A stretch of DNA of 64,000 nucleotides, taken from positions 4,517,501 to 4,581,500 of the forward strand of contig NC_014041.1 of NCBI RefSeq assembly GCF_000023465.1, in the 5' to 3' direction. The DNA is from Zunongwangia profunda SM-A87. Its GTDB lineage: Bacteria > Bacteroidota > Bacteroidia > Flavobacteriales > Flavobacteriaceae. The notes under the pieces were generated by a model. It was not told the origin of the DNA, made no database searches, and was given only the letters and a program-made list of their open reading frames with translations. A program made the translations under genes and the position numbers. This document shows, piece by piece, positions 26,046 through 57,956 of the stretch. Each line of letters begins with the position of its first letter. Position 1 is the stretch's first letter.

Positions 26046-26079
26046 TGATTTGGCTTTCGTACGCAAAACTAGGTCAATT

Positions 26080-28206: not shown

Positions 28207-28419
28207 TTAATCTACACGTTCCGCTTTAAAGCCTACCTTTTGCAAGGTAGCCTTTACATCTTCTTCTGAAGCACCATCGCTTTCTATGGTTAAAATTTTA
28301 TCAGGATTAGCGGTATCCACTTCCCAACTTTCGACACCTTCTTGCTTGTTTAAAAAAGGGGTCACTTTTGATACACAACCACCACAATTGATATTTGTTT
28401 TAAATTTTAAAGTTTTCAT
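28207..28419 (-). CDS. heavy-metal-associated domain protein (CopZ-like copper chaperone)
   Basis: A 70-residue HMA ferredoxin-like domain with the metal motif as CGGC (NCGGCVSKV) at residues 12-15, in place of the more common MxCxxC with a hydrophobic lead. Its pattern TPFLNKQEGVESWEVDTANPDKILTIESDGASEEDVKATLQKVGFKA keeps the beta-alpha-beta-beta-alpha-beta spacing. It lies 23 bases downstream of a P1B-ATPase gene on the same strand. It therefore probably delivers Cu(I) to that pump or buffers it in the cytosol. Confidence 0.9.
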   Translation of the reverse strand: MKTLKFKTNINCGGCVSKVTPFLNKQEGVESWEVDTANPDKILTIESDGASEEDVKATLQKVGFKAERVD

Positions 28420-28442: not shown

Positions 28443-30713
28443 TTAAAGTTTTACTCCTTTAAGCCTTAAACTATTTAGAACTACAGACACGCTACTGAAA
28501 GCCATTGCCATTCCTGCTATCATTGGGTCTAATAAGAACCCATTTACGGGATACAAAACGCCTGCTGCAATTGGAATACCAATGAGATTATAAATGAATG
28601 CCCAAAATAGATTCTGACGTATGCCCAACACCGTTCTTTTTGATAATTCCAGCGCTTTTGGGATGGATCGTAAATCTGATGTTATCAAGGTCATTTTTGC
28701 TACGTCCATCGCTATATCTGAACCTTTTCCCATTGCAATACTCACATTGGCTTGCGCCAAAGCCTGGGAATCATTAATACCATCGCCAACCATTGCGACT
28801 ATCTTTCCGTCCGCCTGCAATTTTTCAACAAAAGCTGCCTTGTCCGAAGGCATTACTTCGCCTTGGTAATTTGTTATTCCGACTTGTTTTGCGACAGCAG
28901 ATGCGGTTTTATTATTATCTCCTGTAAGCATACAAACCTCAATACCTCTTTCCTGAAGCGTTACTATGGCCTTTTCTGAAGTTTCCTTAATCTTGTCTGC
29001 AATGGCGAGTATCGCCAGCAATTGTTTTTCATTACCAAAGAATATGACCGTTTTAGCCTGCTCTTCGAGACTTTCTGCTGTTTGCATTAAAGAAGATTCA
29101 ATTTCAATATTCTTTTCGACCATTAGTTTATGGTTACCCACATAATATTTTGAACCATTCTCTGATTGCGCCTTTACACCTTTTCCTGTAATACTTTCAA
29201 AAGAAGCAATTTCAGCTTGTTCAACCTTTTCATCTTTTAAATGGTTGACTACTGCTTCCGCCAAAGGATGTTCCGATTGTGCTTCTATAGCCAAAAGAAT
29301 TTGCTTGTATTCATTTTGATTTTCAAGGTTATTCTTCCAAATTATATCAGTTACTAAGGGTTTTCCTTCGGTAATTGTACCCGTTTTATCAAGGATAATA
29401 GCATTCACTTTATAACCGAGTTCTAAACTTTCGGCATCCTTTATCAAAATATTATTTTCTGCGCCTTTACCAATTCCCACCATAATTGCGGTAGGTGTTG
29501 CCAAGCCCAATGCGCAAGGACAAGCGATAACCAACACGGCTACAGAGGTCAACAAAGCTTGTGAAAATGCGTTATCGCCACCAACTGACATCCAGACAAT
29601 GAATGTAATGATAGAAATGACTAATACGACAGGAACAAATATTCCGGCAATCTTATCAACCAGCTTTTGAACCGGCGCCTTGCTTCCTTGAGCTTCCTGA
29701 ACCATTTTAATGATTTGTGATAGTAAGGTTTCTCCACCTACTTTTTCGGCAGTAAATTGAAAGCTCCCTTTTTGATTTACCGTGCCTGCAAATACTTTTT
29801 CATCAGTTGATTTTTCTACTGGAACAGGTTCTCCCGTAATCATACTTTCATCTACATACGAGCTTCCCTTGGAAACTTCTCCATCCACAGGAATCTTTTC
29901 TCCGGGACGCACCAAAATGGTCTGGCCAACTTGCACGGATGAAATAGGAATTTCCTTTTCTTCTCCATTCTCAATGATTTTAAGGGTTTTAGGCTGAAGA
30001 CCCATTAATTTTTTGATGGCTGAAGACGTATTGGATTTTGCCTTTTCTTCCAATAGTTTCCCCAAGGAAATAAAGGTTATAATTACCGTAGCCGCTTCAT
30101 AATAAACGTGAGGTTCAATACCACGACTCAACCAAGATTCTGGAAAAAAGGTATTGAATACACTAAAGATAAAAGCGATTCCTGTGCTCAAAGCTACCAA
30201 GGTATCCATATTTGCTTTACCGTGTTTGGCTTGCTTGAAAGCATTGATGAAAAAGCTACGACCGAACCAAAAAAGAATTGGAAAAGTTAACACCAAAGAA
30301 ATCCACTTACCTGGTTCCCATTGCATAAAAAACATTCCTAATACAAAAATGGGTAGCGTAAGTATAGCCGACCAGATAGTACGGCTTTTTATGTCCTGAT
30401 AATGTTTTTGCTGAAGTTCTTGTTGTACTTCCGAAGGATTTTCTGTATCTATAATAATATCATAGCCTACCTCGCGAAGTGCATTTTGAAGTTGATTAGG
30501 ACTCAACGCTTTGTCGTATTCCACAAGAACAGAACTATTAGCGAAATTGACGCTGGCATCAAACACTCCTTCTGTGTGTTTTAAAACAGATTCAACGCTC
30601 GCTGCACACGATGCGCAGGTCATTCCCGTAACAGGAAATGATTCTTTTATTCCCTGTTTTTGCTTCTTTTCTTTGGTTTCAAATATGTTGATTGTCTCCA
30701 TAATCGTATTCAT
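28443..30713 (-). CDS. copA: copper-translocating P1B-type ATPase (CopA1)
   Basis: A 756-residue pump; ATG 30701 is a possible alternative start. It has one N-terminal HMA domain (GMTCASC, cysteines at 33 and 36), eight membrane helices, the CPC intramembrane motif ([17 protein letters not shown]), the phosphorylation motif DKTGTITEG, the HP motif (EHPLAEAVV) and the hinge GDGIND. The residues after the hinge are [10 protein letters not shown] in place of the usual APALAxADVG. It exports Cu(I)/Ag(I) from the cytoplasm. It heads a unit with the CopZ-like chaperone and the MtfA-like peptidase. A second, larger P1B ATPase in the same island (35298-37835) has extra metal-binding domains. Confidence 0.94.
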
Positions 30714-30872
30714 CTTAATACATCACAAATTTTAGGATTTAAAGTTTTTAATATATTACGTTATATGCTGAATGAATTGTAGAATTTGCTTGTTAAGGGT
30801 CACCAATATGTAATTTTCCCAAGTTTCCGATACAAACAAGATAACTTATACCCGATTTTTTATAAAACAAAA

Positions 30873-30947: not shown

Positions 30948-31268
30948 TTATTTTAAATATTCGTTACAAGCTTCCTCACATTTTCTACAGGCATCTGCAC
31001 ATTCTTGACAGTGTTTGTGGTCGTGCTTGGCACATACATCAGCGCATTTTTTACAGATATCACGGCATTGTTCTACCATACCTCTAACATCTTTATAATT
31101 TGACGCAAGCAAATTTGCTGTTGCACTACAGATTGCAGCACAAGCCCTATCAGTTCTTATACAATCTACCATCATCTTGACGTTTTCTTCGCCAAGACAA
31201 GCATCTGCACAGTAATTACAATGTGCTACACAATTGTTTAAAGCTTCGATTAATTTTGAATTTTTCAT
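30948..31268 (-). CDS. four-helix cysteine-rich copper storage protein (Csp-like)
   Basis: A 106-residue protein with about 16 cysteines placed along four predicted helices, for example NNCVAHCNYCADACLG, DRACAAICSATANLLA, EQCRDICKKCADVCAKHDHKHC and ECADACRKCEEACNEY. This matches the Csp/DUF326-type bundle that sequesters many Cu(I) ions in its core. It has no signal peptide, so it resembles the cytosolic Csp3 type. It stands alone between the CopA1 unit and the AraC regulator gene and is likely part of the copper response. Confidence 0.9.
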   Translation of the reverse strand: MKNSKLIEALNNCVAHCNYCADACLGEENVKMMVDCIRTDRACAAICSATANLLASNYKDVRGMVEQCRDICKKCADVCAKHDHKHCQECADACRKCEEACNEYLK

Positions 31269-31411
31269 AAATATATTAGAATTTAAATTGTTAAAAATAG
31301 TCCACTACTATAGCGGATATTACTAAAGACAATTTAATGTATGTAATATCGTTTTTTGTTATAAAATATGCCGAATGATTTGTAAAATTTTCGGATTAAC
31401 AGAATTTAACA

Positions 31412-31978
31412 TCATATTTTATCCAAATATTTACGATTCTGATTTGTGCTTTTTTTAAACTGTGTAGGTGTCATTCCTGTAACCTTTTTAAATTGATTGC
31501 TTAAGTATGCAACACTACTATAATGAAGTTTAAATGCTATTTCACTCAAGGTTAATTCATCGTAAACTATAAGTTCTTTAACACGTTCAATTTTCTGGTT
31601 TATGATGTACTGCTCGAACGTAATATTTTCTACCGACGAAAAAAGTGAACTTAAATATTTGTAGTCCAAGTGAAGTTCGCCTGTAACAATATCTGCCCAT
31701 TTGAAATCGAGCTCCTCGGAAGAATGATGGATTTTATCTACAACCAATGTTTTCATTTGTTCAATAAGTTGACTTTTACGGTCGTCAATCAAACTAAAAC
31801 CTGAATTTTGAAGCGCTTTGGAAAGACTATTTTTTGTGTTGGGACTTAACGATGAAACTAATTTAACCTCCCCCAATTTTATAGAAACATACAGTATTTT
31901 AAGTTGTTCCAAAATATTGGAAACTGCTGAGATACATCTTGGGCAGACCATATTTTTAATATGGATAGTCTCATTCAT
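31412..31978 (-). CDS. compact HMA-like/AraC-type metal-responsive regulator (copy 1)
   Basis: A 188-residue protein with two parts. Residues 1 to about 75 form an HMA-like domain beginning MNETIHIKNMVCPRC, with the metal pair C12 and C15, and a ferredoxin-like pattern. Residues about 85-185 form an AraC DNA-binding domain (LTLSEIAFKLHYSSVAYLSNQFKKVTGMTPTQFK). Direct fusion of a metal-binding fold to an AraC HTH implies a copper- or silver-responsive activator or repressor, but the metal was not shown. It is the last gene after the CusB-like adaptor and a 58-residue protein (12-base gap), so it may be autoregulated. A second copy ends the CusA-TolC unit. Confidence 0.8.
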   Translation of the reverse strand: MNETIHIKNMVCPRCISAVSNILEQLKILYVSIKLGEVKLVSSLSPNTKNSLSKALQNSGFSLIDDRKSQLIEQMKTLVVDKIHHSSEELDFKWADIVTGELHLDYKYLSSLFSSVENITFEQYIINQKIERVKELIVYDELTLSEIAFKLHYSSVAYLSNQFKKVTGMTPTQFKKSTNQNRKYLDKI

Positions 31979-31990
31979 ATAGTACTTGTT

Positions 31991-32167
31991 TCAAAATAAT
32001 TTTAATCCAGATTTGTATAGAGAATAATAAACGGCAGCTGTTGCAGCAACTACAAAAATCAATACTATCACAACTAAAGCTATAATTTTATCTTTTTTTG
32101 GAATATCACTTTTAGGCTGATGTTTCTTTCTGTCATTTTTTCTTCTATTTCTTCTACTCTCACTCAT
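31991..32167 (-). CDS. small single-pass membrane protein, 58 residues
   Basis: A short frame from ATG 32167 to TGA 31991. The N-terminal 27 residues are very basic (SESRRNRRKNDRKKHQPKSD), then comes one transmembrane helix (IIALVVIVLIFVVAATAAVYY) and a short periplasmic tail. It begins 64 bases after the CusB-like adaptor gene and ends 12 bases before the AraC regulator on the same strand, so it is probably in their operon. I recognise no family. The positive-inside pattern suggests a membrane anchor or a small subunit of the efflux system. Confidence 0.6.
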   Translation of the reverse strand: MSESRRNRRKNDRKKHQPKSDIPKKDKIIALVVIVLIFVVAATAAVYYSLYKSGLKLF

Positions 32168-32231: not shown

Positions 32232-34016
32232 CTATTGTACGGTTTCTGTTACTTCACCACAGTTTAGCATTGCTTGTCCGTAGTAGGGATTTTGTATTTC
32301 TTTTTCCGTGCTCAACCAATATGCGCCTTCATTATTATTTGCCATTGGACAAAAATCTATGTAAATTTCTTGGTTGATGCCAAACGCTTTCATTGCATTT
32401 ATGAGGTGTGCTGAAAGACTGATAAAATGATTTCTCTGGGTTTTAATATCGGATGTCTGGGCAATTTCATTTGAGGAAGCCTTCAATTCTTTTTCAAGTT
32501 GCGCCCAGTGGTTATTCGCATTTTTATCCTTTAGCAAAGCAAGGTCAACTTGTGTTAAACTTTTCTGTAAGGTCTGTGCGGCCGTTTTTGCTTTTTCACT
32601 TTGGTCGTTTGTCAATGCTGTTTTAAGCATAATATAATCATCAAAAACTGTTTTGAGCTGCTCTTGGAATTTGGAAGCTACATCCATACGCTTGGCGGCA
32701 TCAACTGTGTTGTTTAAATTTTCCATTCCCAAATGCCCTTCGTGACCTGTCATTGTTTTACCACCTGATGCATTCATCATAGATTTTTTTCCTTGTAACT
32801 GTGCAGCGGCATCTACGGTAAATGTTCCGTTGGTTACCACTTCATCGCCGTTAGAAAGCCCTTCGATAATGGTATAGTTCTCACCATTTTTCGTTCCCAA
32901 AGTCACTTCTTGCATTTCAAAAACGGGTTCATTGGGATTGGTCTTTACGTACACCAATGAGCGCTCGCCTGTCCACATTACTGCCGTTGCAGGTATGCTT
33001 ATCGCAATTTCCATAGTATTGCCTTTTGTCATTGCCACTTTTGCGGTTACGAACATTCCTGGTTTTAATAGATTTTCCTTATTGTTCAATGTGGCGCGCA
33101 CTGAAACAGTTCTGGACTTTGTATTCAAAGTAGGGTCGATAAATGAAACTGATGCTTCAAATTCTTTATTGGGATAAGCGTTACTAGTGATTGTTACCTT
33201 TTGACCTTCCTTTAGTTGCGAGATTTGTCTTTCGTAGGCGTCAAACATTGCCCAAACAGTACCCAAATCACTTACTTTAACAATGGGCTGGCCTTGTTTT
33301 ACATAGTCGCCTTCTTCTGCCATTTTTTGGGAAACGGTGCCTGAAACAGTTGCATAAATCGGAAAATTTTCCCGCACCTTGCCAGAACTTTCTATTTGGT
33401 CTATTTGGCTTTCAGAAAGTTTCCACAATTTTAATTTGTTTCGAACTGCTTTGTATAAACCTGGTTGTGATTCTTTCAGGTCAGAAGCAGTTAAAAGTTC
33501 TTGTTGGGCAGCAACGAGCGTTGGTGCATAAATCGTTGCCAACAACTGTCCTTTTCGTACTTCTTCGCCCGTGAAATTGACATTCAACTTTTCAATACGT
33601 CCTTCAAAATAGCTTGCCTGTACCGCATTGGCTTCTTCGTTGGCCATTATTTTTCCGGAAAGTGTTATTTTGTTATCGTCGGTTCCTGAAATATTTCCTA
33701 CAATTGTAGTTTGGATATTCGCCAGTGCCATTGCATTGTCGCTCATTTTTATTTCGTTCATTGCAAGCCCTTCCGCACCAGTTTCGGCGGGAATTAAATC
33801 CATACCGCATATTGGGCAGTCGCCAGGTTCTGGTTGCATAATCTGTGGGTGCATTGAACAGGTCCACATTTGATGTTCTTCGGAGTGGTTAACGTCTTCG
33901 CTCAAATCTGTTACTTTCTTGCTGTTTACGGAACCTTCCGCAGAAGGGCCAAAAAAGACATAGCCCAAGACCAATCCTATGGCTAAAATTGCGGTATAAA
34001 TGATGTATTTTTTCAT
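32232..34016 (-). CDS. cusB: CusB-like RND efflux periplasmic adaptor with metal-binding and DUF3347 domains
   Basis: A 594-residue adaptor. After the membrane anchor (residues 1-22) comes a heavy-metal-binding module MWTCSMHPQI and CPICGMDLIPAE (about residues 52-78), then the HlyD-type hairpin and barrel domains (SYFEGRIEKLNVNFTGEEVRKGQLLATIY, FPIYATVSGTVSQKMAEEGDYV), and from about residue 450 a C-terminal DUF3347 domain that ends PYYGQAMLNCGEVTE. It should link an RND pump to an outer membrane channel for Cu(I)/Ag(I). The only RND pump in the window, CusA, lies 19 kb away at 53.5-57.3 kb. It precedes the 58-residue and AraC genes on the same strand. Confidence 0.93.
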   Translation of the reverse strand: MKKYIIYTAILAIGLVLGYVFFGPSAEGSVNSKKVTDLSEDVNHSEEHQMWTCSMHPQIMQPEPGDCPICGMDLIPAETGAEGLAMNEIKMSDNAMALANIQTTIVGNISGTDDNKITLSGKIMANEEANAVQASYFEGRIEKLNVNFTGEEVRKGQLLATIYAPTLVAAQQELLTASDLKESQPGLYKAVRNKLKLWKLSESQIDQIESSGKVRENFPIYATVSGTVSQKMAEEGDYVKQGQPIVKVSDLGTVWAMFDAYERQISQLKEGQKVTITSNAYPNKEFEASVSFIDPTLNTKSRTVSVRATLNNKENLLKPGMFVTAKVAMTKGNTMEIAISIPATAVMWTGERSLVYVKTNPNEPVFEMQEVTLGTKNGENYTIIEGLSNGDEVVTNGTFTVDAAAQLQGKKSMMNASGGKTMTGHEGHLGMENLNNTVDAAKRMDVASKFQEQLKTVFDDYIMLKTALTNDQSEKAKTAAQTLQKSLTQVDLALLKDKNANNHWAQLEKELKASSNEIAQTSDIKTQRNHFISLSAHLINAMKAFGINQEIYIDFCPMANNNEGAYWLSTEKEIQNPYYGQAMLNCGEVTETVQ

Positions 34017-35297: not shown

Positions 35298-37835
35298 TTA
35301 AAGTTTTAACGAACGTAACCGCAAAGCGTTCATAATAACGGAAACTGAACTAAAGCTCATTGCCAAAGCCGCTATCATTGGTGATAATAACAACCCGAAA
35401 ATAGGGAACAAAACACCTGCTGCGATTGGGATTCCTAAAATGTTATATCCTAAAGCCCAAAATAGGTTTTGCTTGATGTTACGCATTACACCGTCGCTCA
35501 ATTCCCGTGCCTTGACAATACCGTGCAAATCGCCTTTTACCAAGGTTATCATTGCACTTTCAATGGCAACATCTGTTCCTGTTCCCATTGCGATACCAAC
35601 ATCACTTTTTGCCAAGGCTGGCGCATCATTGATGCCGTCGCCTGCCATTGCTACAACTTTTCCGCTGTTCTGTAATTTTTCTACTTCCTGAAGTTTGTTT
35701 TCGGGCAACATTCCTGCTTTAAAATCAGCAAGATTTAATTCTTTTGCGACCGCTTGGGCAGTATCGTGATTGTCGCCAGTAAGCATTATTACTGCGATAC
35801 CTTTGTCTTGAAGTGCTTTGATCGCTTTGGCGCTGGTCGCCTTTATTTTGTCGCCAATGACAACATATCCCACAACTTTTGAATCGATGGATAGGTATGA
35901 AACTGTTTTTCCTTGCTTTTGAAAACTTTGTGCTTCGGTTTCCATTTCCGAAGTTAATTCAGCCTTGGCGTATGCCATCATTTTGGAATTCCCTAAATCC
36001 ACTTTTTTCCCGTTGATGTTTCCTTCAACACCTTTTCCGGTAACTGCGCTAAACTTTTCAGCGCTCAAAAACTCAACATTCTTTTCTTTACCATATTTTA
36101 CAGTTGCTTCGGCAAGCGGATGCTCGCTTTTGCTGTTTAGGGAAACGATGTATTGAAGCACTTCTTTTTCTGAAAAATTAGTTCCGAAGGCTCCGACTTT
36201 TTCAACCGTTGGTTTGCCTTCTGTTATGGTTCCTGTTTTATCGATAATAAGTGTATCCACCTTGTCCATTTTTTCCAAAGCTTCGGCATTTTTTATGAGC
36301 ACACCATTTTGTGCGCCCTTACCAACACCGACCATAATGGACATTGGTGTTGCCAAGCCCAAGGCACAGGGACAGGCGATAATCAATACTGCAATTGCAT
36401 TTACAAAGGCATAAACATAGACGGGTTCCGGACCAAAAATAGCCCAAACCACAAATGTGATAATGGAAATAAGGACAACTATGGGTACAAAATATCCCGA
36501 GACGGTATCCGCCAATTTTTGGATTGGTGCACGACTGCGACTGGCATTATTGACCATTTGGATAATTTGGGACAGTAGGGTATCTGCACCCACCTTTTCG
36601 GCTTTCATCAAAAAAGATTGGTTGCCGTTGATGGTGCCACTGGTAACTTTGTCATTTGCCGCTTTGTTTACGGGAATAGGTTCGCCTGTAATCATAGATT
36701 CATCGACCGTTGTACTACCTTCGGAAATCACGCCATCAACTGGAATTTTTTCGCCTGGTTTCACCCGTAGGATATCGCCCAATTTAATGCTATCAATCGT
36801 AACCTCTTCTTCCTTGCCATCTTTGACTAGTATGGCCTTGTTTGGCGCGAGCTTTAGCAATTCCTTTATTGCTGAATTGGTTTTGCCGTGGGCACGTGCT
36901 TCCAAAACCTGACCCAAGAGCACCAAGGTCAAAATAATAGTGGATACTTCATAATATACGTGAACGGCACCAGATTCTGTTTTGAACTGTGCCGGGAAAA
37001 AATCGGGAAAAAGCATACCGAATACGCTGAATAACCACGCTGCGCCAGCACCAATGCCGATTAGGGTAAACATATTGAGGTTCCAGGTTTTGATGCTTTT
37101 ATAGGCACGTTCAAAGAACATCCACGTAGCATAAAACACCACAGGAATTGAAAGTGCAAGCTGAATCCAGTTCCAGTTTTTTTGCTTCATTACCGTATAT
37201 AACGGATTATTCGGAATCATATCGCTCATTGCGATTAAGAAAATAGGTAAGGTAAAGGCGACTGCAATCCAGAATTTCTTGAGTAATTTGTTATAGGTCT
37301 TTTCTTCGGCTGAACTATCTGCTTCCATTGGGACTAAGTCCATCCCACAGATTGGGCAGGCTCCAGGTTCATCTTTTACAATTTCCGGGTGCATTGGGCA
37401 AGTCCATTGTTCAGAAGTTTTTGCAGATAAATTTTGCTCTTCAACTAAATCCATTCCGCAGACAGGACAGTCTCCAGTTTTTTCATATGTTTTGTCTCCC
37501 TCACAATGCATCGGACAGTAAAAAGTGCCAGTTCCTTTACCTTTAGGTTTTTCATTTTTTGCTTTCGTACTTCGACTACGCTCAGCATCAACTCCGGCGG
37601 TATCGTTTTGATGATGTCGCTCTCCAGATTTGTGGATAGAATAAGTACCACCTTCTTTTTTAAGGGCATCTTGGAATTTCTCAATAGGAATATGTGATTC
37701 CATTTCAATGGTAGCTTCAGCTTTTGCTAAATTCACAGTAGCCTTTGAGACACCTTTCACTTTGGAAAGTGTTCCTTCTACGTGATTTCGACAACCATTG
37801 CAGGTCATTCCGTGTATTTTATAGGTGTGTTTCAT
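35298..37835 (-). CDS. copA: copper-translocating P1B-type ATPase with HMA and two YHS-like metal domains (CopA2)
   Basis: An 845-residue pump. The N-terminal HMA domain has GMTCNGC (C12 and C15). Then follow two tandem YHS-like heavy-metal-binding modules: FYCPMHCEGDK with GDCPVCGMDLV (about residues 105-135), and WTCPMHPEIVKDEP with CPICGMDLVP (about 140-170). The ATPase core has the CPC motif ([19 protein letters not shown]), [18 protein letters not shown] and GDGINDAPALAKSDVG. Between the HMA and first YHS-like module is a low-complexity linker (AGVDAERSRSTKAKNEK) containing a genomic repeat sequence. It exports Cu(I)/Ag(I). PepSY and DUF305 genes follow immediately. Confidence 0.95.
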   Translation of the reverse strand: MKHTYKIHGMTCNGCRNHVEGTLSKVKGVSKATVNLAKAEATIEMESHIPIEKFQDALKKEGGTYSIHKSGERHHQNDTAGVDAERSRSTKAKNEKPKGKGTGTFYCPMHCEGDKTYEKTGDCPVCGMDLVEEQNLSAKTSEQWTCPMHPEIVKDEPGACPICGMDLVPMEADSSAEEKTYNKLLKKFWIAVAFTLPIFLIAMSDMIPNNPLYTVMKQKNWNWIQLALSIPVVFYATWMFFERAYKSIKTWNLNMFTLIGIGAGAAWLFSVFGMLFPDFFPAQFKTESGAVHVYYEVSTIILTLVLLGQVLEARAHGKTNSAIKELLKLAPNKAILVKDGKEEEVTIDSIKLGDILRVKPGEKIPVDGVISEGSTTVDESMITGEPIPVNKAANDKVTSGTINGNQSFLMKAEKVGADTLLSQIIQMVNNASRSRAPIQKLADTVSGYFVPIVVLISIITFVVWAIFGPEPVYVYAFVNAIAVLIIACPCALGLATPMSIMVGVGKGAQNGVLIKNAEALEKMDKVDTLIIDKTGTITEGKPTVEKVGAFGTNFSEKEVLQYIVSLNSKSEHPLAEATVKYGKEKNVEFLSAEKFSAVTGKGVEGNINGKKVDLGNSKMMAYAKAELTSEMETEAQSFQKQGKTVSYLSIDSKVVGYVVIGDKIKATSAKAIKALQDKGIAVIMLTGDNHDTAQAVAKELNLADFKAGMLPENKLQEVEKLQNSGKVVAMAGDGINDAPALAKSDVGIAMGTGTDVAIESAMITLVKGDLHGIVKARELSDGVMRNIKQNLFWALGYNILGIPIAAGVLFPIFGLLLSPMIAALAMSFSSVSVIMNALRLRSLKL

Positions 37836-49300: not shown

Positions 49301-51688
49301 TTAAAATCTTAGTGATAATCCTCCACCTGCACCAAAACGGTTATCATAACTTCCCATCAATGAGAAATTTTTGGATAAAAGATATTCAACACCCGTACTC
49401 CAAGTAATCTCTTTTTTGAAATTATCTCCTTGAGGCAGGTCATCTACCCACCCAAAATCTGCTTGGTACTCGTACATCCCAAAAACAATAGTTCTAGGGA
49501 AAATGGTAATAGCACGGCTTAAGCTAATCTGCGGGCGTAGCTTACTATCCATCCTCACATCCAACGTAAATAAGTAGGGCGTAAGGTATCGTATCCCTGC
49601 TATAGCTGTTGTTGTTATTTCTTCAAGGCTATCCTCCATTTCGTTCTCGACATTTACACCGCCAAAAACGGTTAGATAATCATAGAGGTATCTATCGTAG
49701 GCAGCTTCAACCTCCATATTCCTGTTCCAACCATATTCGCCCCTCAAACTGAATTGGTTTCGGATATTTGAAGATATAAGGTTCAAAGTGGTCATATGTG
49801 ATGCGGCATCTATCATTCCGTAGGAATAGAACTGGTCGGTCTCGTCAATAAGTTTAGATACGGGATATTCCTTCAACCTTGGATCCCTAGGGGTATCATA
49901 ACTTACAATACGCGCCATACCTCCCATCATATGGTATAGAATATGACAATGGAAAAACCAATCGCCATATTCATCACCATAAAATTCAATGGTAACTTGT
50001 TTCATTGGTGGAACATTGACTGTGTGTTTTAAGGGTGAGTATTCCCCATTTTCGTTAATGACCCTAAAAAAATGACCGTGTAGGTGCATTGGGTGGTGCA
50101 TCATAGTCAGGTTATTGAAGGTAATCCTAGTTACTTCGTCTCCCTTGATTTTTATTTTATCTGCTTCAGATAGAGGAACCCCATTCAAACTCCAGATATA
50201 GCGCTGCATATTCCCGGTAAGGTTTAATAGGATATCCGTTACAGGAACATCTGGGTCATAATTGGTCTTCTCCGGCGATTTCAAGTAGTCATAGTTATAC
50301 TCTGAAAACATATTCATTCCCTGCATTCCATCTGCTTCGTCCATTTTCATATCATCCATTTGAGAGGCCTTTTTCATTTTGGTATCCATTTTTGTGTCCA
50401 TCCCTGCCATTTTGGAATGGTCCATCTGCATTGAATCCTTTTTCATATCCATTTGCATTTCGTCCATTTTATGCTTCTTCATTTCCATACCCTTCATATT
50501 GGACTTGTCCATATTCATTGTACCCATATCCATATCTTTCATTCCTTCCATCTGCATTCCCCATTTTTCTTTCATCTCGTAACGCTCATCTTTGCCTGGT
50601 CGGAACTTTAAAGCGGGTGCACCCATTTTCATTTTCATTTTGGCCATTTGTTGCATCATCCCTATTTTATCAGGTTTGGATACATCGGGTGCAGCAACAA
50701 TAGGTCCTTGGCCTAGGTATGCCGTTGCGGTACCAGAGCCGTCTTGGGCCATAATTTTATATTCCAGTTTGCCGTTCTCCGGTATGGTTACGATAAAATC
50801 ATAGGTTTCAGCGACCCCTATAAATGTCTTGTTATGCTTAACCGGTACTACATCTTTACCGTCTGCCGAGACAAGCAAAGGGTCAGGGCCGCCAAAGGCC
50901 ATCCAGAACGAAGTAGAAGCAGAGCCGTCTATAATGCGAAGGCGCACTTTTTCGCCAGGTTTAAACTCGGGGTACTCCACTTTTTCTTCTCCATTAATTA
51001 AGAACGCTGGGTAATACACATCTGCCACATCTGCACTTTCCATACGCTGTCTCCAAAAATTTAATTGCGCCCCAAATGCGCCCCTTGCAATTACTTGGTT
51101 AAGCGGCGTAGCTGTTCCTTTTCTTATATTGTACCATTCTGTACCTCGCTTTAAAAACCGAAGTACATCCCGCGGTTTTTCGTTGGTCCAGTCAGATAGT
51201 ACCAAAACCTGCTCTTTATCATACTCCAAGGTTTTTTCTTTGGGCTGTATTACAATTGAGCCGTAAACACCGCTCTGTTCCTGCAACATTGTATGGGAAT
51301 GGTACCAATAGGTGCCGTTTTGCTTTATTGCGAATTCATATTTTAGTGTTTTACCGGGTTCTATGGGCGGTGTAGAAAGGTAGGGTACCCCATCATAAAA
51401 ATTGGGCAACAACAAGCCGTGCCAATGGATGGATGTCTCCACGCTCATTTCATTTTTTACATAGATTACTGCGTACTCCCCTTCGGTAAATTCGAGCGTT
51501 GGCCCTGGAATACCTCCGTTGACGGTCATCCCTTTTACTTCTTTACCGGCTTTATTAACCATTTCTTCCTTTAGGGTCAACGTGTATTCGTGAACGGGTA
51601 GATTATCGACATTACCTTCCACGGACTGTGCAGATGCTGTATAGGTACACAGTAACAAAAGAATAAATGCATAGCTTATTTTTTTCAT
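49301..51688 (-). CDS. multicopper oxidase (CopA/PcoA-like) fused to a CopB-like outer membrane barrel
   Basis: A 795-residue protein. After a signal peptide, three cupredoxin-type domains carry the copper motifs: HWHG at residues 88-91, HSH at 130-132, HHPMHLHGHF at about 531-540 and HCHILYHMMGGM at about 580-591, so T1, T2 and T3 copper sites should be intact. A Met/Lys-rich insert (about 345-465, repeated MKMDKSNMKGMEM-type runs) resembles CopA copper-binding segments. From about residue 615 to the end, alternating aromatic/charged strands (ending GLSLRF) look like the CopB outer membrane protein that is normally separate. The protein thus appears to join periplasmic Cu(I) oxidation to a membrane anchor. 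Confidence 0.88.
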   Translation of the reverse strand: MKKISYAFILLLLCTYTASAQSVEGNVDNLPVHEYTLTLKEEMVNKAGKEVKGMTVNGGIPGPTLEFTEGEYAVIYVKNEMSVETSIHWHGLLLPNFYDGVPYLSTPPIEPGKTLKYEFAIKQNGTYWYHSHTMLQEQSGVYGSIVIQPKEKTLEYDKEQVLVLSDWTNEKPRDVLRFLKRGTEWYNIRKGTATPLNQVIARGAFGAQLNFWRQRMESADVADVYYPAFLINGEEKVEYPEFKPGEKVRLRIIDGSASTSFWMAFGGPDPLLVSADGKDVVPVKHNKTFIGVAETYDFIVTIPENGKLEYKIMAQDGSGTATAYLGQGPIVAAPDVSKPDKIGMMQQMAKMKMKMGAPALKFRPGKDERYEMKEKWGMQMEGMKDMDMGTMNMDKSNMKGMEMKKHKMDEMQMDMKKDSMQMDHSKMAGMDTKMDTKMKKASQMDDMKMDEADGMQGMNMFSEYNYDYLKSPEKTNYDPDVPVTDILLNLTGNMQRYIWSLNGVPLSEADKIKIKGDEVTRITFNNLTMMHHPMHLHGHFFRVINENGEYSPLKHTVNVPPMKQVTIEFYGDEYGDWFFHCHILYHMMGGMARIVSYDTPRDPRLKEYPVSKLIDETDQFYSYGMIDAASHMTTLNLISSNIRNQFSLRGEYGWNRNMEVEAAYDRYLYDYLTVFGGVNVENEMEDSLEEITTTAIAGIRYLTPYLFTLDVRMDSKLRPQISLSRAITIFPRTIVFGMYEYQADFGWVDDLPQGDNFKKEITWSTGVEYLLSKNFSLMGSYDNRFGAGGGLSLRF

Positions 51689-51752: not shown

Positions 51753-52319
51753 CTACCTTATTTGATCTAAAGGGTTTCTAATACTTTTTTGATTATTCTT
51801 ATAATTAGTCAGACTCATACCAGTTTCACTTTTAAACAGCCTACTTAAATGATTTACATTACTGTAATCAAGCAGCTGACTTATCTCCGTAAAATTACCC
51901 TCTTGTAATTGAATCAGCTCTTTCACTCTTTCTATCTTGAGTTTTATAAAGTATTTTTCTATGGTAATATGCTCCGTAACAGAAAATATTTTACTGATTT
52001 TTGAGTACTCAAGGTTTAATTTACTTTCCAAATGCTTGGACAGCGTTTTATTTAATTGAAGTGGTAATTTTTGTAATAATTTAATAAGTTCAATTTTAAC
52101 TTGCTCTACTAATTGCTGGTCTTGCGCCAGTAAAATTTCGAAACCATTGTTTTCTAAAACATTTTTTATATTTTCAAAATCATCTATAGATTTCTCTTCG
52201 TAAATAATAGAACCCAATTCAATATGCTTTAAGTGAATCCCTAATGTTTCAACATCACTCTGGATTGTTTTAATACAGCGATTACACACCATATTTTTTA
52301 TAAATAATTTCTTTTCCAT
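51753..52319 (-). CDS. compact HMA-like/AraC-type metal-responsive regulator (copy 2)
   Basis: A 188-residue homologue of the protein at 31412. Its HMA-like N-terminus is MEKKLFIKNMVCNRC (C12 and C15, as in copy 1), and the AraC domain ends NFTEISQLLDYSNVNHLSRLFKSETGMSLTNYKNNQ. The lengths and motif positions agree, but the two differ widely in sequence, so they may sense different metals or promoters. It starts four bases after the TolC gene ends. The order CusA, TolC, AraC on one strand suggests autoregulation of the pump. Confidence 0.8.
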   Translation of the reverse strand: MEKKLFIKNMVCNRCIKTIQSDVETLGIHLKHIELGSIIYEEKSIDDFENIKNVLENNGFEILLAQDQQLVEQVKIELIKLLQKLPLQLNKTLSKHLESKLNLEYSKISKIFSVTEHITIEKYFIKLKIERVKELIQLQEGNFTEISQLLDYSNVNHLSRLFKSETGMSLTNYKNNQKSIRNPLDQIR

Positions 52320-52323
52320 CCGG

Positions 52324-53541
52324 TTAGTTGATTAGGTAATTAACAATTGCAGATTGTGTGTAATACTTCTGTATCGATTCCACTTGATTTAACTGAAATT
52401 TGAGCTGTAACTCTTGGATATCCAGCACATCATTAAAATCAATGGTGCCCGTTTCATAGTTTTTAATGAGAATTTCTTCAGCATCTTCTGCTTGTTTCAG
52501 ATTGTTCTCTTGTGTATTATATGCTATTCGTGCTTGGTTGCGTTGCGATATTGCTTTTGCGAAAGCGGATTCCAAAACATTCAATCGTTGTGCTTTTTGA
52601 GTCTCGATTTCTTGTTGGCGCAAGTCATTTTGCCTTGAAATAGATTTATACCGATTATTAAAAATGGGAATGGAAACTGAAACCATAGGCATTAGTATAT
52701 CCTTTCCATTGTCTATTGGATTCATATCCGCTCGCTCGCTCACTGGTAGATAATCAACCCCAAAACCAAACATAGGTAATGCCTCACGCTGGTTGAGCAA
52801 TTCAGATTGTGCTATAGATTCGTAGAGTTTATCATATTTAAGCAGTTCAGGATTAAGTGATAGTGCATCTCTACCAGATACGGCGTTTTCACTTGGAATT
52901 TCCATTAATGTGACCACATCAACCATCATAGTTCCATCACGATTGAGTAGCTTATTGAAGGTGATTTGTTCTGACCCAAATTCCTCTTCGAGCACCTCTT
53001 TTTGCTGTTGCAATTCATTTTGACGAATCTGTAATCTCAAAACGTCAACAGAAGATGCCTTGCCTACTTCAACCGATGTAAGGGCAAGACGCTCATAGGT
53101 TTCTAATAATTTAATGTTCTTATCGAGCACCCTTTGCTTTGCTTGTATTTCATACAAACGATAATAGGATTGAGCTACAGAAAGTGCCAGTTTTCTTTTG
53201 GCAATTATGATTTCCACATATTCAGCTTCAGCCATTGAGGCTGCATAATTTTCTCTTGCCGTTATGGTCCCGAACCAAGGCAACATTTGCTTAAAGCCAA
53301 TACGTGCTCTCTGCGCCCCAACACGGGTCTCGGGCTCACTGACAAAGTACCCAGCACTCACTTCAGTATTAGGCAGCCAGTTTGCTTCGTTCACTTTTTC
53401 TTCGGCGATGTTATAGCGCAGTTCAAAGGCTTGAATCTCGGGGTTGTTAGATTGTGCCTCTTCAATGTATGATTGTAGTTGTTGCGCTTTCGCGAAAGCG
53501 GAAACAAACAAAAGACAGGTAATAATTTTTATATTTTTCAT
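52324..53541 (-). CDS. TolC family outer membrane efflux protein (CusC-like)
   Basis: A 405-residue protein with a short signal peptide (LFVSAFAKAQQ) and two repeated coiled-coil/beta-barrel modules typical of TolC/outer membrane efflux proteins: the segment SYIEEAQSNNPEIQAFELRYNIAEEKVNEANW (family motif) and the second repeat with ALSLNPELLKYDKLYESIAQSEL. It should form the outer membrane exit for the CusA pump. Its start codon overlaps the stop of CusA by four bases (ATGA). A palindrome CGCTTTCGCGAAAGCG lies in its signal-peptide coding region. Confidence 0.92.
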   Translation of the reverse strand: MKNIKIITCLLFVSAFAKAQQLQSYIEEAQSNNPEIQAFELRYNIAEEKVNEANWLPNTEVSAGYFVSEPETRVGAQRARIGFKQMLPWFGTITARENYAASMAEAEYVEIIIAKRKLALSVAQSYYRLYEIQAKQRVLDKNIKLLETYERLALTSVEVGKASSVDVLRLQIRQNELQQQKEVLEEEFGSEQITFNKLLNRDGTMMVDVVTLMEIPSENAVSGRDALSLNPELLKYDKLYESIAQSELLNQREALPMFGFGVDYLPVSERADMNPIDNGKDILMPMVSVSIPIFNNRYKSISRQNDLRQQEIETQKAQRLNVLESAFAKAISQRNQARIAYNTQENNLKQAEDAEEILIKNYETGTIDFNDVLDIQELQLKFQLNQVESIQKYYTQSAIVNYLIN

Positions 53542-56500
53542 TTGTTTGCTCGTTTAAGTTGGTACTCTTTTTTCCAGCTATATAATACTGGTACTAAAAA
53601 GTAGGATGTAATATCTATAATCATCCCACCGAAAATGGGGATTGCCATAGGTATCATAATATCGCTTCCTTTTCCCGTAGAAGTAAGTACAGGTAAGAGT
53701 GCAAGCACGGTGGTAACAGTAGTCATCAAACACGGACGAATTCGCTTTCCAGCAGCTTCTAATGTGGCAAGTCGGATTCCTTTTTTATCATTGGGATTCT
53801 CTCTGTCAAAAGTTTGTGTGAGGTAGGTAGCCATAACTACACCATCATCTGTTGCGATACCAAAAAGCGCAATAAAGCCAACCCAGACAGCAACACTTAG
53901 ATTGATGGTTTTCATATTGAACAAATCCCGCATATTCTCACCAAAAAAGCTGAAATTGAAGAACCAATCCTGACCGTAAAGCCAAATCATTATAAAGCCA
54001 CCTGCAAAGGCAACTGCGATTCCTGTAAATACCATCAACGAGGTGGAAACAGAACGGAACTGGAAATACAGAATCAAGAAAATAATAAGCAATGCCAAAG
54101 GCACAACTACGGAAAGTGTTTTTTCTGCGCGCAGCTGATTTTCATACGTACCCGTAAAACGGTAATTAATACCTTGTGGCACAATCAAATCACCATTGTC
54201 TATTTTTTGTTGAATGAGCGCTTGGGCATTTTCGACCACATCAACTTCGGCAAAACCATCGAGTTTATCAAACAGTACATACCCTATCAAGAAGGTGTCC
54301 TCACTTTTTATGACCTGTGGACCTTGTTCATAACGTATGTCTACCAATTCGCTCAGTGGAACCGGACTTCCTTTCTCAACCGGAACATAAATATCTTTTA
54401 AATCTTCTGGGTTTGCACGCAACTCACGCGGATAGCGCACTCTTACTCCATACCGCTCACGACCTTCTACCGTTTGAGTAAGCGGCATACCGCCCACAGC
54501 TACCTGAAGTACTTCCTGAACATCCATTATGGAAATTCCATAGCGTGCCAATTGGTCTCGTTTTATATCAATTAGTAAATAGGGCTTGCCCACAATACGG
54601 TCTGCAAAGACAGCTTGTTCTTTTACACCTTCAGCTTGTTTTAAAATGTCTTCGAGCTGTAGACCAAAAGCTTCTATTGTTTTCAAGTCTGGCCCTTTAA
54701 CTTTTATACCCATAGGCGCACGCATACCTGTTTGAAGCATTACGAGCCTTGTCTCGATAGGTTGTAGTTTTGGTGCAGAAGTCACCCCTGGAAATTTGGT
54801 CACTTTCACAATCTCATTCCAGATATCGTCTGGGCTGTCGATTTCTGGCCGCCAGTTTCGGTAATATTCACCGCTGCCGTCTTCAATTAAATCGTTATGG
54901 GTTGCATTTGTTTTTAGTTGCGAGGCCTCATAATTAGCGTCATCATCGATTTCATTATTTGGATTAATAATGAATTTATCATTTTTCAGAACAAATAAAC
55001 CATCATCGTTTACGCGGTAGCGTTGTCTCTCGCCATTCTTGTTTCGCATATATTCAGACTTATACTGAATCACATTTTCATACATCGAGAGCGGCGCAGG
55101 GTCAAGAGCAGATTCTGTTCTACCCGATTTACCTACTACCGTTTCGATTTCAGGAATACTGGCTACGGCCATATCAAGCTGCTGTAACACACGCTTGTTT
55201 TCTTCAACACCTGCGTGTGGCAAGGATGTTGGCATTAACAGGAATGAGCCTTCGTTGAGCGATGGCATAAATTCTTTACCCGTGTTGCGCATTATTATGG
55301 CCCCTAAAATCAACACTGTGGTCGGAATTATTAAAAACAGTAATCGGTTTTGAAGTGCCCAACGTAATATAGTGTCGTAATATTTTTGGAAAATTGAAAA
55401 CGCCCCCAGTAATCCGAAACAGATAATCGCAACAAAAATCAAGTTCATTATAATACCGCGGTCAAAACCTAGTGGTCGCCAGTATTCGGCTAGAAGGAAA
55501 ACAATAGCAATACAAGAAATAACGATATGTATTAGATTGGCTCTTTTTGCCGTGATAATATCGCGTACACTCAAAATTGCAACGATTCCATAGGCAATTA
55601 ATATAATACCCAACCAATAACCATAGAAGATGGCTGTGATACCAAGGACGATGAGAACAGCATTAATAATATATTTAGCGTGCTCCCTAATAGTACTCTT
55701 TTTGAAAAGGAATGCGGCAAATGGTGGTATCAAGAAAAGGGCGATAACCAAAGACGCCGTGAGCGCCATTGTCTTTGTAAATGCGAGTGGACGAAACAAC
55801 TTTCCTTCAGCACCTATCATAGTGAATACAGGAATAAAACTGATAATGGTTGTTAATACTGCCGTTAAAATTGCACCAGAAACTTCAGCAGTTGCATTGT
55901 AGATGATTTCATTTGTGGTGTACTCGATTCCGCTTTCGCGAAAGCGTAATTTTTCATCTTCCAAATGCCGAATCATATTTTCGGCCAGTATAACGCCCAC
56001 ATCCACCATTGTACCTATAGCAATGGCAATCCCTGACAATGCTACAATATTTGCATCTACATCAAAAAGTTTCATTGCAATGAAAACCATTAATACTGCA
56101 ACGGGTAACAAACCTGAAATTAAGATGGATGCGCGTAGGTTGAACACCATTACGATAATGACCAGAATGGTTATTAAGATTTCAAGCGTGAGTGCTTCAT
56201 TAAGCGTGTGTAGGGTCTCTTGAATAAGCTGGGTACGGTCGTAAAAGGGGACAATGGTCACTTGTGAGGTGCGGCCATCTGCCAGAACTTTTGTTGGAAG
56301 CCCAGATGACAGTTCAGCGATTTGCTCTTTTACATTATTGATAACTTCCATAGGGTTGGCGCCATATCGCGCTACCACAACACCACCAACAACTTCGGCA
56401 CCTTCTTTATCTAAAATACCACGACGAGTTTGCGGTCCCAAATGAACAGTTGCGATGTCTTTTATTCGGATAGACGTAAAATTCTCTGAAGTGACCACGG

Positions 56501-57290
56501 CATTTTCAATATCTGCAACGGATTTTACATAGCCCAAACCACGAACCAGATATTCGGCCTGATTGATTTCCAATGTTTGTGCACCAATATCTTGGTTGCT
56601 CTGCTTAACGGCTTTGACAATGGCACTTAATCCAATATTGTATTGGCGCATTTTCTCCGGGTCCACATCTACTTGATATTCCTGAACATAACCGCCGATA
56701 GACGCTACTTCGGAAACACCACTTGCCGATGACAATCCGTATTTCACATAATAATCCTGTATACTACGCAGTTCCTGTAAATCCCAACCACCGGTTACAT
56801 TACCATCCTTGTCACGACCTTCTAGGGTGTACCAGAATATTTGTCCTAAACCTGTGGCATCAGGGCCCAAAGCTGGGTTAACGCCATCTGGCAGCAAGTT
56901 GGAAGGAAGCGAATTGAGTTTTTCGAGAATGCGACTACGTGACCAGTAAAACTCCACATCTTCTTCAAAAATGATATAGATACTGGAAAACCCAAACATA
57001 GAGGAACTACGAATAGTTTTCACGCCTGGAATACCTAGAAGCGAAGTTGTAAGTGGATACGTAATTTGGTCTTCAATATCCTGTGGCGAGCGCCCTTGCC
57101 ATTTGGTAAAAACAATTTGTTGGTTTTCACCAATATCGGGAATGGCATCCACAGCTACAGGGTCAGTAGGCAAAATACCGGTCTCCCAATTAAAAGGTGC
57201 GTTTACAACGCCCCAACCGACGAACAAAGCTAATAGTAAAACAGCTACTAATTTATTTTCTATTAGAAATTTGATGCTTTTATTCAGCAT
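53538..57290 (-). CDS. cusA: CusA/CzcA family heavy-metal RND efflux pump
   Basis: A pump of 1250 residues from the preferred start ATG 57290 (a frame from 57353 adds 21 residues). It has the twelve-helix RND plan: the first hydrophobic segment near residue 10, then PVAVDAIPDIGENQQIVFTKWQGRSPQDIEDQITYPL, GIAIAIGTMVDVGVILAENMIRHLED in the first helical bundle, and a second bundle with ATDDGVVMATYL. The methionine pathway residues of CusA appear in FMPSLNEGSFLLMPTSLP and LVMLQTGMRAPMG, which indicates Cu(I)/Ag(I) export. It is longer than E. coli CusA by about 200 residues, mostly in an extra hydrophobic insert (about 530-630). The HYC_CC_PP gene is 104 bases upstream. Confidence 0.93.
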   Translation of the reverse strand: MLNKSIKFLIENKLVAVLLLALFVGWGVVNAPFNWETGILPTDPVAVDAIPDIGENQQIVFTKWQGRSPQDIEDQITYPLTTSLLGIPGVKTIRSSSMFGFSSIYIIFEEDVEFYWSRSRILEKLNSLPSNLLPDGVNPALGPDATGLGQIFWYTLEGRDKDGNVTGGWDLQELRSIQDYYVKYGLSSASGVSEVASIGGYVQEYQVDVDPEKMRQYNIGLSAIVKAVKQSNQDIGAQTLEINQAEYLVRGLGYVKSVADIENAVVTSENFTSIRIKDIATVHLGPQTRRGILDKEGAEVVGGVVVARYGANPMEVINNVKEQIAELSSGLPTKVLADGRTSQVTIVPFYDRTQLIQETLHTLNEALTLEILITILVIIVMVFNLRASILISGLLPVAVLMVFIAMKLFDVDANIVALSGIAIAIGTMVDVGVILAENMIRHLEDEKLRFRESGIEYTTNEIIYNATAEVSGAILTAVLTTIISFIPVFTMIGAEGKLFRPLAFTKTMALTASLVIALFLIPPFAAFLFKKSTIREHAKYIINAVLIVLGITAIFYGYWLGIILIAYGIVAILSVRDIITAKRANLIHIVISCIAIVFLLAEYWRPLGFDRGIIMNLIFVAIICFGLLGAFSIFQKYYDTILRWALQNRLLFLIIPTTVLILGAIIMRNTGKEFMPSLNEGSFLLMPTSLPHAGVEENKRVLQQLDMAVASIPEIETVVGKSGRTESALDPAPLSMYENVIQYKSEYMRNKNGERQRYRVNDDGLFVLKNDKFIINPNNEIDDDANYEASQLKTNATHNDLIEDGSGEYYRNWRPEIDSPDDIWNEIVKVTKFPGVTSAPKLQPIETRLVMLQTGMRAPMGIKVKGPDLKTIEAFGLQLEDILKQAEGVKEQAVFADRIVGKPYLLIDIKRDQLARYGISIMDVQEVLQVAVGGMPLTQTVEGRERYGVRVRYPRELRANPEDLKDIYVPVEKGSPVPLSELVDIRYEQGPQVIKSEDTFLIGYVLFDKLDGFAEVDVVENAQALIQQKIDNGDLIVPQGINYRFTGTYENQLRAEKTLSVVVPLALLIIFLILYFQFRSVSTSLMVFTGIAVAFAGGFIMIWLYGQDWFFNFSFFGENMRDLFNMKTINLSVAVWVGFIALFGIATDDGVVMATYLTQTFDRENPNDKKGIRLATLEAAGKRIRPCLMTTVTTVLALLPVLTSTGKGSDIMIPMAIPIFGGMIIDITSYFLVPVLYSWKKEYQLKRANK

Positions 57291-57393
57291 AGAAATGATT
57301 ATTAAGTAATTATAAATCTTGTTTAAAAGTGACAAACAAGCAGAAATGTCCAAAACAAATTAATGCAGGACTACAGTTCTAATTACTTAAAAA

Positions 57394-57810
57394 TCAAATA
57401 AGGAAAGTCTGGTCTAAAACTTGAATATCCCTGACCAAGGGAGGAGGCGTATAATCTCTGTATGAATTTAAATCTTCTTGAGATTCGAAAAATAAGTGTA
57501 TATAGGTATGGATAAAAGCAGCAACAAATAGTTGTTGGTCTTTATCTAATTTGTCGAACGATGTTTTTAAAGTATCTTGCCCTTCAACAATCACTTGTTC
57601 ATCACTACAGCAATCTTTTTTAGAAATATCACACTCTGATGACTGCGATTGCTGTTGAACATCCATACCGCAAGTTTGAGCGTGACCAAATAATGAAGAG
57701 TCCACAAAAATATCTCCACAATAATGACTATCTACCGTAAATGATACGGTTGACAACAACACTAACAGTGCCATAGAGAATGTTGATATTTTAAAAAAGA
57801 TTTTCTTCAT
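57394..57810 (-). CDS. HYC_CC_PP family protein
   Basis: A 138-residue exported protein from the preferred start ATG 57810 (a frame from 57837 adds nine residues ahead of the signal peptide). The mature protein shows the family's naming motifs in order: HYCGD (residues about 29-33), CC (DCCSDE, about 66-71) and YTPPP (about 119-123). These proteins are small periplasmic or outer membrane-associated proteins of Bacteroidota, often beside CusA-type pumps as here; their function is not known. It probably heads the CusA-TolC-AraC transcript. Confidence 0.8.
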   Translation of the reverse strand: MKKIFFKISTFSMALLVLLSTVSFTVDSHYCGDIFVDSSLFGHAQTCGMDVQQQSQSSECDISKKDCCSDEQVIVEGQDTLKTSFDKLDKDQQLFVAAFIHTYIHLFFESQEDLNSYRDYTPPPLVRDIQVLDQTFLI

Positions 57811-57956
57811 TAATTTTACAAAAATACAAAATTTCAAGTAAATTTTCTTTATTTAACAAATAATTTTGATTTCATATGCAACATATTCTCCTAAATCTAT
57901 ATGAAAGATTATCTAATTTCTAGAAAAATGCCGAATACAAACCTGTTTTAAATTTA

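Follow-up and report, generated by a model that had tools for sequence, protein, structure and literature searches.

A putative HMA-AraC copper sensor and its predicted operator at a copper island of Zunongwangia profunda

Introduction

How do Bacteroidota sense copper in the cytosol? The usual bacterial copper sensors belong to known classes such as MerR, CsoR and CopY, and in the open-licence literature, covered mostly at the level of listings, we found neither a cytosolic copper sensor assigned to Bacteroidota nor a description of the fusion protein reported here. The question is raised by a stretch of 64,000 nucleotides from Zunongwangia profunda SM-A87 (NC_014041.1, positions 4,517,501 to 4,581,500; hereafter the window), which carries copper genes together with two genes on the minus strand (copy 1, 31412..31978; copy 2, 51753..52319) for proteins of 188 amino acids, in which an N-terminal segment resembling the HMA domain precedes an AraC-type DNA-binding domain. 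An original prediction, made from the sequence alone, saw in these proteins a compact AraC-type copper sensor with autoregulation, each copy serving one half of a split Cus system. Our analysis points to other targets: the protein is likely a one-component cytosolic sensor that responds to Cu(I)/Ag(I) by activating the copper ATPase gene copA and a DUF326 gene, via its HMA-like domain and a 28-bp operator.

Results

Both open reading frames (ORFs) are present as first described, with IKNMVCPRC in copy 1 and IKNMVCNRC in copy 2 placing cysteines at positions 12 and 15 (C12 and C15), and both exceed the Pfam cut-off of 33.6 bits for HTH_18 (PF12833), at 61.8 bits for copy 1 and 37.2 bits for copy 2. 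The two proteins are identical at 68 of 188 residues (36% over the whole length, E 5e-33); in copy 1 the HMA-like part spans residues ~1-65, a linker helix residues 67-84 and the AraC DNA-binding part residues ~94-187. An AraC-type domain was matched at E<=0.01 in each of 45 diverse family members. Among 174 aligned members, comprising 172 relatives and the two window copies, C15 was conserved in 173 and C12 in 166, one row being gapped at both positions and seven having serine at position 12 (Ser12). At E<=1, the Pfam matches of either copy included no MerR-type family (as a test for CueR), no CsoR-type helical bundle (PF02583) and no BlaI/MecI-type winged helix (as a test for CopY).

The HMA-like nature of the N-terminus held up as well, though the Pfam HMA model did not reach its cut-off of 24.8 bits, with 13.4 bits for copy 1 (E 0.1) and no match for copy 2; 5 of the 45 diverse members matched it at E<=0.01. 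When the N-terminal domain profile of the 45 members was compared by hhalign with an HMA profile built from 60 of 75 collected chaperone and CopA HMA sequences (15 being left out), the probability was 97.8 (E 7.8e-13) with cysteine aligned on cysteine, vs. at most 1.3 for five column-shuffled profiles. The family profile also matched ATP7B (E 1e-7) and CopZ (E 4.5e-4) in the PDB. Structure prediction, the check for which the original prediction had named any other fold as counting against it, gave a ferredoxin-like fold in the order E-H-E-E-H-E, followed by the linker helix and the AraC helices (predicted local distance difference test, pLDDT, 90; predicted template modelling score, pTM, 0.79). 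The N-terminus is HMA-like and homologous to HMA domains, with its CxxC in register.

What DNA might such a protein recognize? We cut 47 gaps between regulator and copper gene at the gene start; one was too short, and one of the remaining 46 leads to a second regulator gene. A 28-base motif, TAyAAAtcwTtTCCAAAATTnTGTAAc, was found in 42 of these 46 gaps across the phylum, with a log-likelihood of 531 for the motif search vs. 110-148 in ten shuffled sets. An earlier fuzzy consensus pass served as a guide only, and a search of uncut 173-base stretches after the regulator was discarded, the motif found there being coding sequence for the GMxCxxC of the gene that follows and no DNA site. Symmetry was best described by the inverted repeat TTAyAnA-N13-TnTrTAA, with a column correlation of 0.60, the top value among the centres tried. 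In Bacteroidota the -7 promoter consensus is TAnnTTTG, accompanied by a -33 element. Promoter information in the form of TTTG was not used in finding the motif; TTTG lies 23-25 bases past the site in 24 of the 42 sites, 18 of them at exactly 24, vs. 7 at all remaining offsets between 0 and 56, and the complete TAnnTTTG, seen in 7 cases, was at offset 24 every time. Because TTTG stands at this fixed distance of ~24 bases, we surmise that the 28-base site is most likely part of a promoter, abutting its -33 region. A scan for Sigma-70-type promoters found 9 vs. 8.3 expected.

Close relatives of copy 1 display a sharper form of the site, TACAAATCATTCaGCATAT and then cgTAA. A copy-1 site matrix trained on the same 80 close loci in which the sites were counted yielded 73 sites of at least 12 bits; copA follows directly in 53 cases and the DUF326 gene follows in 11, and 35 of the 48 distinct flanks have TTTG at offset 24. 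Within the window, operators were predicted on the minus strand before copA (30754..30781, 39.1 bits) and before the DUF326 gene (31357..31384, 36.9 bits), the next-best place in the 64 kb reaching 9.0 bits and five shuffled windows no more than 7.5. Exactly 24 bases past the copA operator is the TTTG of a putative -7 element (30726..30729, minus strand), with the TA of TAnnTTTG unmatched. In the window, neither the cus genes nor the genes that lead up to copy 1 are preceded by a copy-1-type site of at least 8 bits, a result that lends no support to the autoregulation proposed originally.

As an exact pattern, the site has three occurrences in the 5.13 Mb genome: two in the window, ahead of copA and of the DUF326 gene, and one ahead of the copA of a second copper island. 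Scanning 120 family genomes gave 7 exact matches vs. 0 for the reversed pattern; 6 precede copA and 1 a DUF326 gene, the 4 outside Z. profunda all being before copA. These matches come from 5 genomes, all among the 10 (of 120) carrying a regulator at least 77% identical. In the four other genomes and the second island the site lies 3.5-5.4 kb from the regulator gene, which argues for an association with copA itself, beyond mere proximity to where the regulator gene ends. A further close-regulator genome without the exact site (G351) has a one-mismatch site ~3 kb from the regulator. With three mismatches allowed, Z. profunda itself gave 40 matches vs. 21 for the reversed pattern. The second island (L200, 3630000-3646000) has a regulator that is 84% identical and also contains a CsoR-type gene; between its regulator and copA are inserted an ArsR-type gene and two MerT/MerP-like fusions, which by eye have the look of a mercury-type cassette.

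At E<=1e-20, the family profile matched in 119 of 247 Bacteroidota genomes, representing 71 of 122 genera. Protein searches at E<=0.001 returned at least 7935 relatives for copy 1 and 2261 for copy 2, figures that include other AraC proteins; the 120 relatives listed per copy carry, where they are named, generic labels only (AraC-like, helix-turn-helix, YesN-, MelR- or RhaR-type, hypothetical). Family members were present in 29 records of a plasmid collection, from Hymenobacter (14), Runella, Spirosoma and seven other genera, all of which we take to be Bacteroidota. The Z. profunda genome has five members, and the three outside the window likewise belong to copper regions. Three Leeuwenhoekiella records and one metagenome-assembled genome labelled Cytophagaceae contain a protein 100% identical to copy 1, which may reflect kinship or transfer.

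To what extent the family keeps company with copper genes was judged on a distant sample of 84 members (80 regions, 77 genomes), taken from the best-scoring profile matches and hence biased to good matches. Of the 84, 68 have in their region a gene homologous to a copper gene of the window, vs. 1 of 20 other AraC loci in the same genome under the same criterion, these controls being drawn from 50 AraC matches outside the HMA-AraC family; counting HMA motifs too, the figures were 69 of 84 (one by a chance CxxC) and 2 of 20. In 46 of the 84 members a copper ATPase, HMA or DUF326 gene lies no more than 450 bp downstream on the same strand, and the copper gene that most often comes next encodes an ATPase or an HMA chaperone. 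Together with the lack of a site before the cus genes, this leaves the original assignment of one sensor to each half of the Cus system unsupported. All 80 close copy-1 loci have a window-copper-gene homologue, as expected for loci found via the copy-1 protein, and they display, with variations, a recurring island of DUF3347 proteins, PepSY, DUF305, CusB, a 58-amino-acid ORF, the regulator, and DUF326 and/or copA-copZ or CusA. The family appears to act as a copper sensor in a wide range of Bacteroidota.

Ser12 occurs in 7 of the 84 members, with a copper-gene homologue in the region for 0 of 7 (Fisher 8e-5, computed with one Ser12 locus wrongly counted for a chance CxxC in a 1424-residue ORF). 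Because all seven share one subclade of 9 (support 0.994), they represent about one evolutionary change and no independent test. This subclade (L128, L161, L162, L172, L182, L186, L194, L198) sits away from copper genes, and by eye several of its members adjoin PAS/sensor-like or cupin-like genes.

Turning to the genes of the window, which are on the minus strand unless stated, copy 1 begins 12 bases behind an ORF of 58 amino acids with one hydrophobic stretch (31991..32167), a relative of which precedes the regulator in 43 of the 80 close loci; this ORF is itself behind a CusB-type membrane-fusion protein with HMBD and DUF3347 (32232..34016), and further upstream is a second P1B ATPase of 845 amino acids with HMA and HMBD (35298..37835). 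Downstream of copy 1 are the two predicted targets, a DUF326 protein of 106 amino acids (30948..31268), which is presumably copper-storage-like, and a CopA-type P1B copper ATPase with an N-terminal HMA (28443..30713; 756 amino acids as listed), and after copA a CopZ-like HMA protein of 70 amino acids (28207..28419). A terminator-like hairpin between DUF326 and copA (30899-30868) agrees with separate promoters for these genes. Another terminator-like hairpin (31317-31301), directly past the predicted DUF326 transcript start, is a possible leader structure. The copper region is flanked by a tyrosine recombinase with Arm-DNA-bind_5 and Phage_integrase (26050-27294, plus strand) and by a DUF5712 protein (60293-61324, minus strand), which we take to be of the mobilisation type, and their positions on either side suggest an integrative mobile element of which the copper island forms a part.

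Copy 2 begins 4 bases behind a TolC-type outer-membrane factor (52324..53541), itself behind a CusA-type resistance-nodulation-division pump (53538..57353 as listed; the true start is probably ~20 codons later), and is followed by a multicopper oxidase (49301..51688). The placements that had led to the idea of a split Cus system are as described for both copies. Among 20 copy-2 relatives, 10 preserve the strict order CusA-TolC-regulator-multicopper oxidase and 2 more preserve it with other genes inserted; the remaining 8 are transcribed in a direction away from or opposite to CusA. Copy 2 is a paralogue linked to the CusA-TolC-multicopper oxidase genes. With the general site matrix, no convincing match turned up ahead of CusA or on either side of copy 2. 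Just upstream of CusA on the same strand is the gene for a small cysteine-containing protein with an HYCG motif and a signal-like N-terminus (57394..57837), present in most copy-2 loci examined; motif searches at copy-2 loci were rejected, their matches being coding ends and the starts of this HYCG gene. Once coding sequence had been taken out, a promoter-like pattern common to 21 upstream stretches emerged (271 vs. 105-116 in 4 shuffles), and in relatives TGTTAA repeats were seen by eye above this pattern before the copy-2 gene group. At the HYCG gene itself and in its relatives (L224-L243), a -7-like TTTG lies ~5-8 bases before the start codon, the start being script-chosen, and TGTTAA repeats stand further upstream, an arrangement that hints at a transcript with almost no leader.

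Discussion

We propose that C12 and C15 of the HMA-like domain would coordinate Cu(I), and probably Ag(I) as well, the metal being either captured or acquired in a ligand exchange with CopZ or CopA. Metal loading may then rearrange the two subunits of a presumed dimer, enabling the AraC domains to bind the 28-bp inverted-repeat-like operator; from its position just upstream of the -33 region and ~24 bases before the -7 TTTG, the complex would recruit RNA polymerase, with transcription of copA for export and of the DUF326 gene for storage. We infer copper as ligand, DNA binding, dimerisation and activation from this arrangement of domains, sites and genes. What finds support, by inference, in the original proposal is a compact AraC-type copper sensor, in that an HMA-type CxxC domain is fused to an AraC domain in copper loci phylum-wide; the autoregulatory part finds none. 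We speculate further, and more tentatively, with odds that we put a little short of even, that the family constitutes a separate structural class of copper sensor, probably the main cytosolic one in most Bacteroidota outside a CsoR-bearing family, in which a metallochaperone fold is loaded by ligand exchange with CopZ or CopA, possibly with a Cu(I)-bridged CxxC pair forming on the inverted repeat. If so, the cell would read the copper load of its chaperones and not free copper, and the subclade lacking C12 and copper context would be a retargeted offshoot.

Several observations weigh against the proposed copA activator. The link between operator and regulator is one of association. The window sites helped define the exact pattern, leaving only 4 of 7 matches outside the own genome; 5 of the 10 close-regulator genomes have no exact site, 20 of the 80 close loci have no site, and the two-mismatch pattern, which matches in 116 of 120 genomes, is uninformative. 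At the DUF326 site, ATTG replaces TTTG at about the -7 distance. Nine of the 84 distant members have both cysteines and no copper gene nearby. As for other sensors, the Z. profunda genome has two CsoR-type genes; a CueR model exceeded its curated cut-off of 147.4 bits in 0 of 247 genomes, with sub-cut-off matches reaching 137.6 bits in the phylum (best in the own genome, 33 bits), and genomes with near-cut-off matches may contain CueR-like proteins.

We regard it as unlikely that the operator belongs to another copper regulator, e.g., a two-component system or one of the CsoR or ArsR type, and that the HMA-AraC protein acts elsewhere. The assignment by association, the 3.5-5.4 kb between site and regulator gene and the CsoR-type genes all leave room for this; against it, the exact-site genomes carry the close regulator in 5 of 5 cases when only 10 of 120 genomes hold one, and a related motif is common to regulator-to-copper-gene gaps of very divergent genomes. 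We find it still harder to accept that the same protein and operator form a repressor, the apo-protein blocking copA until released by Cu(I) in the manner of CsoR or CopY. The direction of control is not readable from sequence, and a site adjoining the core promoter could permit a steric block, but the site lies upstream of -33, at a fixed ~24 bases from the -7 TTTG, and not over the -7 element or the start site; upstream of -33 is the usual position for AraC-type activators.

The nature of the signal and the choice of targets can be weighed likewise. That the N-terminal domain senses Zn, Cd, Hg or the thiol redox state instead of Cu(I) seems improbable, since the predicted targets and neighbours are of copper type (CopA-type ATPase, DUF326, multicopper oxidase, CusAB, DUF3347). 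Nor do we give much credence to each copy autoregulating its own half of the Cus system: both copies follow Cus genes closely in the same orientation, and for copy 2 the different promoter pattern with TGTTAA repeats in relatives leaves room for another site, yet the copy-1-type site is missing before the cus genes and the genes preceding copy 1, and the general-type site at the copy-2 genes. We favor activation of copA and the DUF326 gene, a reading that combines sensor, likely operator and promoter geometry in a single prediction, open to test in roughly half of the sampled phylum genomes (119 of 247), and that offers a small component for use in copper biosensors.

For Bizionia argentinensis, a published copper gene survey discusses, in its main text, MerR, CopY-like, ArsR and CusR-like regulators; CueR-, CopY- and CusR-like candidates are doubted or rejected there and ArsR types fallen back on, CopA1 (BZARG_1779) and CusB (BZARG_1781) are placed in one unit, and neither 'AraC' nor 'BZARG_1780' occurs in that main text (PMC11213822). 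The gene neighbourhood is like that of our window, and in Bizionia echini (L042) the position framed by copA1 and cusB is held by an HMA-AraC regulator. In our own set CsoR was found in 76 of 247 genomes, 54 of them from one family without a member among the 119 HMA-AraC genomes; we did not use this complementarity as evidence (co-occurrence in 10 genomes, Fisher 4e-14), the p value being 0.11 without those 54 genomes.

Both halves of the protein are of known kinds and the fusion has been deposited many times; what is new is an inverted-repeat-like site of 28 bp in the gap separating regulator and copper gene, together with its spacing to TTTG as a putative -7 element. With the AraC/XylS family (AraC, MarA/SoxS, YesN-type) the protein shares the C-terminal domain with two helix-turn-helix motifs, the nearest solved chains being the DNA-binding domains of YesN, AraT and AraC, whereas its sensor is HMA-like, not a cupin or receiver, within a total of 188 amino acids. 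With CopZ, Atx1 and the ATP7B domains it has in common the fold, the CxxC position and the profile match, but it is fused to a DNA-binding domain, has NMVCxRC in place of GMxCxxC and mostly falls short of Pfam HMA. In its proposed role as a cytosolic copper sensor beside copA and copZ it resembles CueR (MerR), CsoR and CopY, the DNA-binding and sensor folds of which differ from HMA and AraC.
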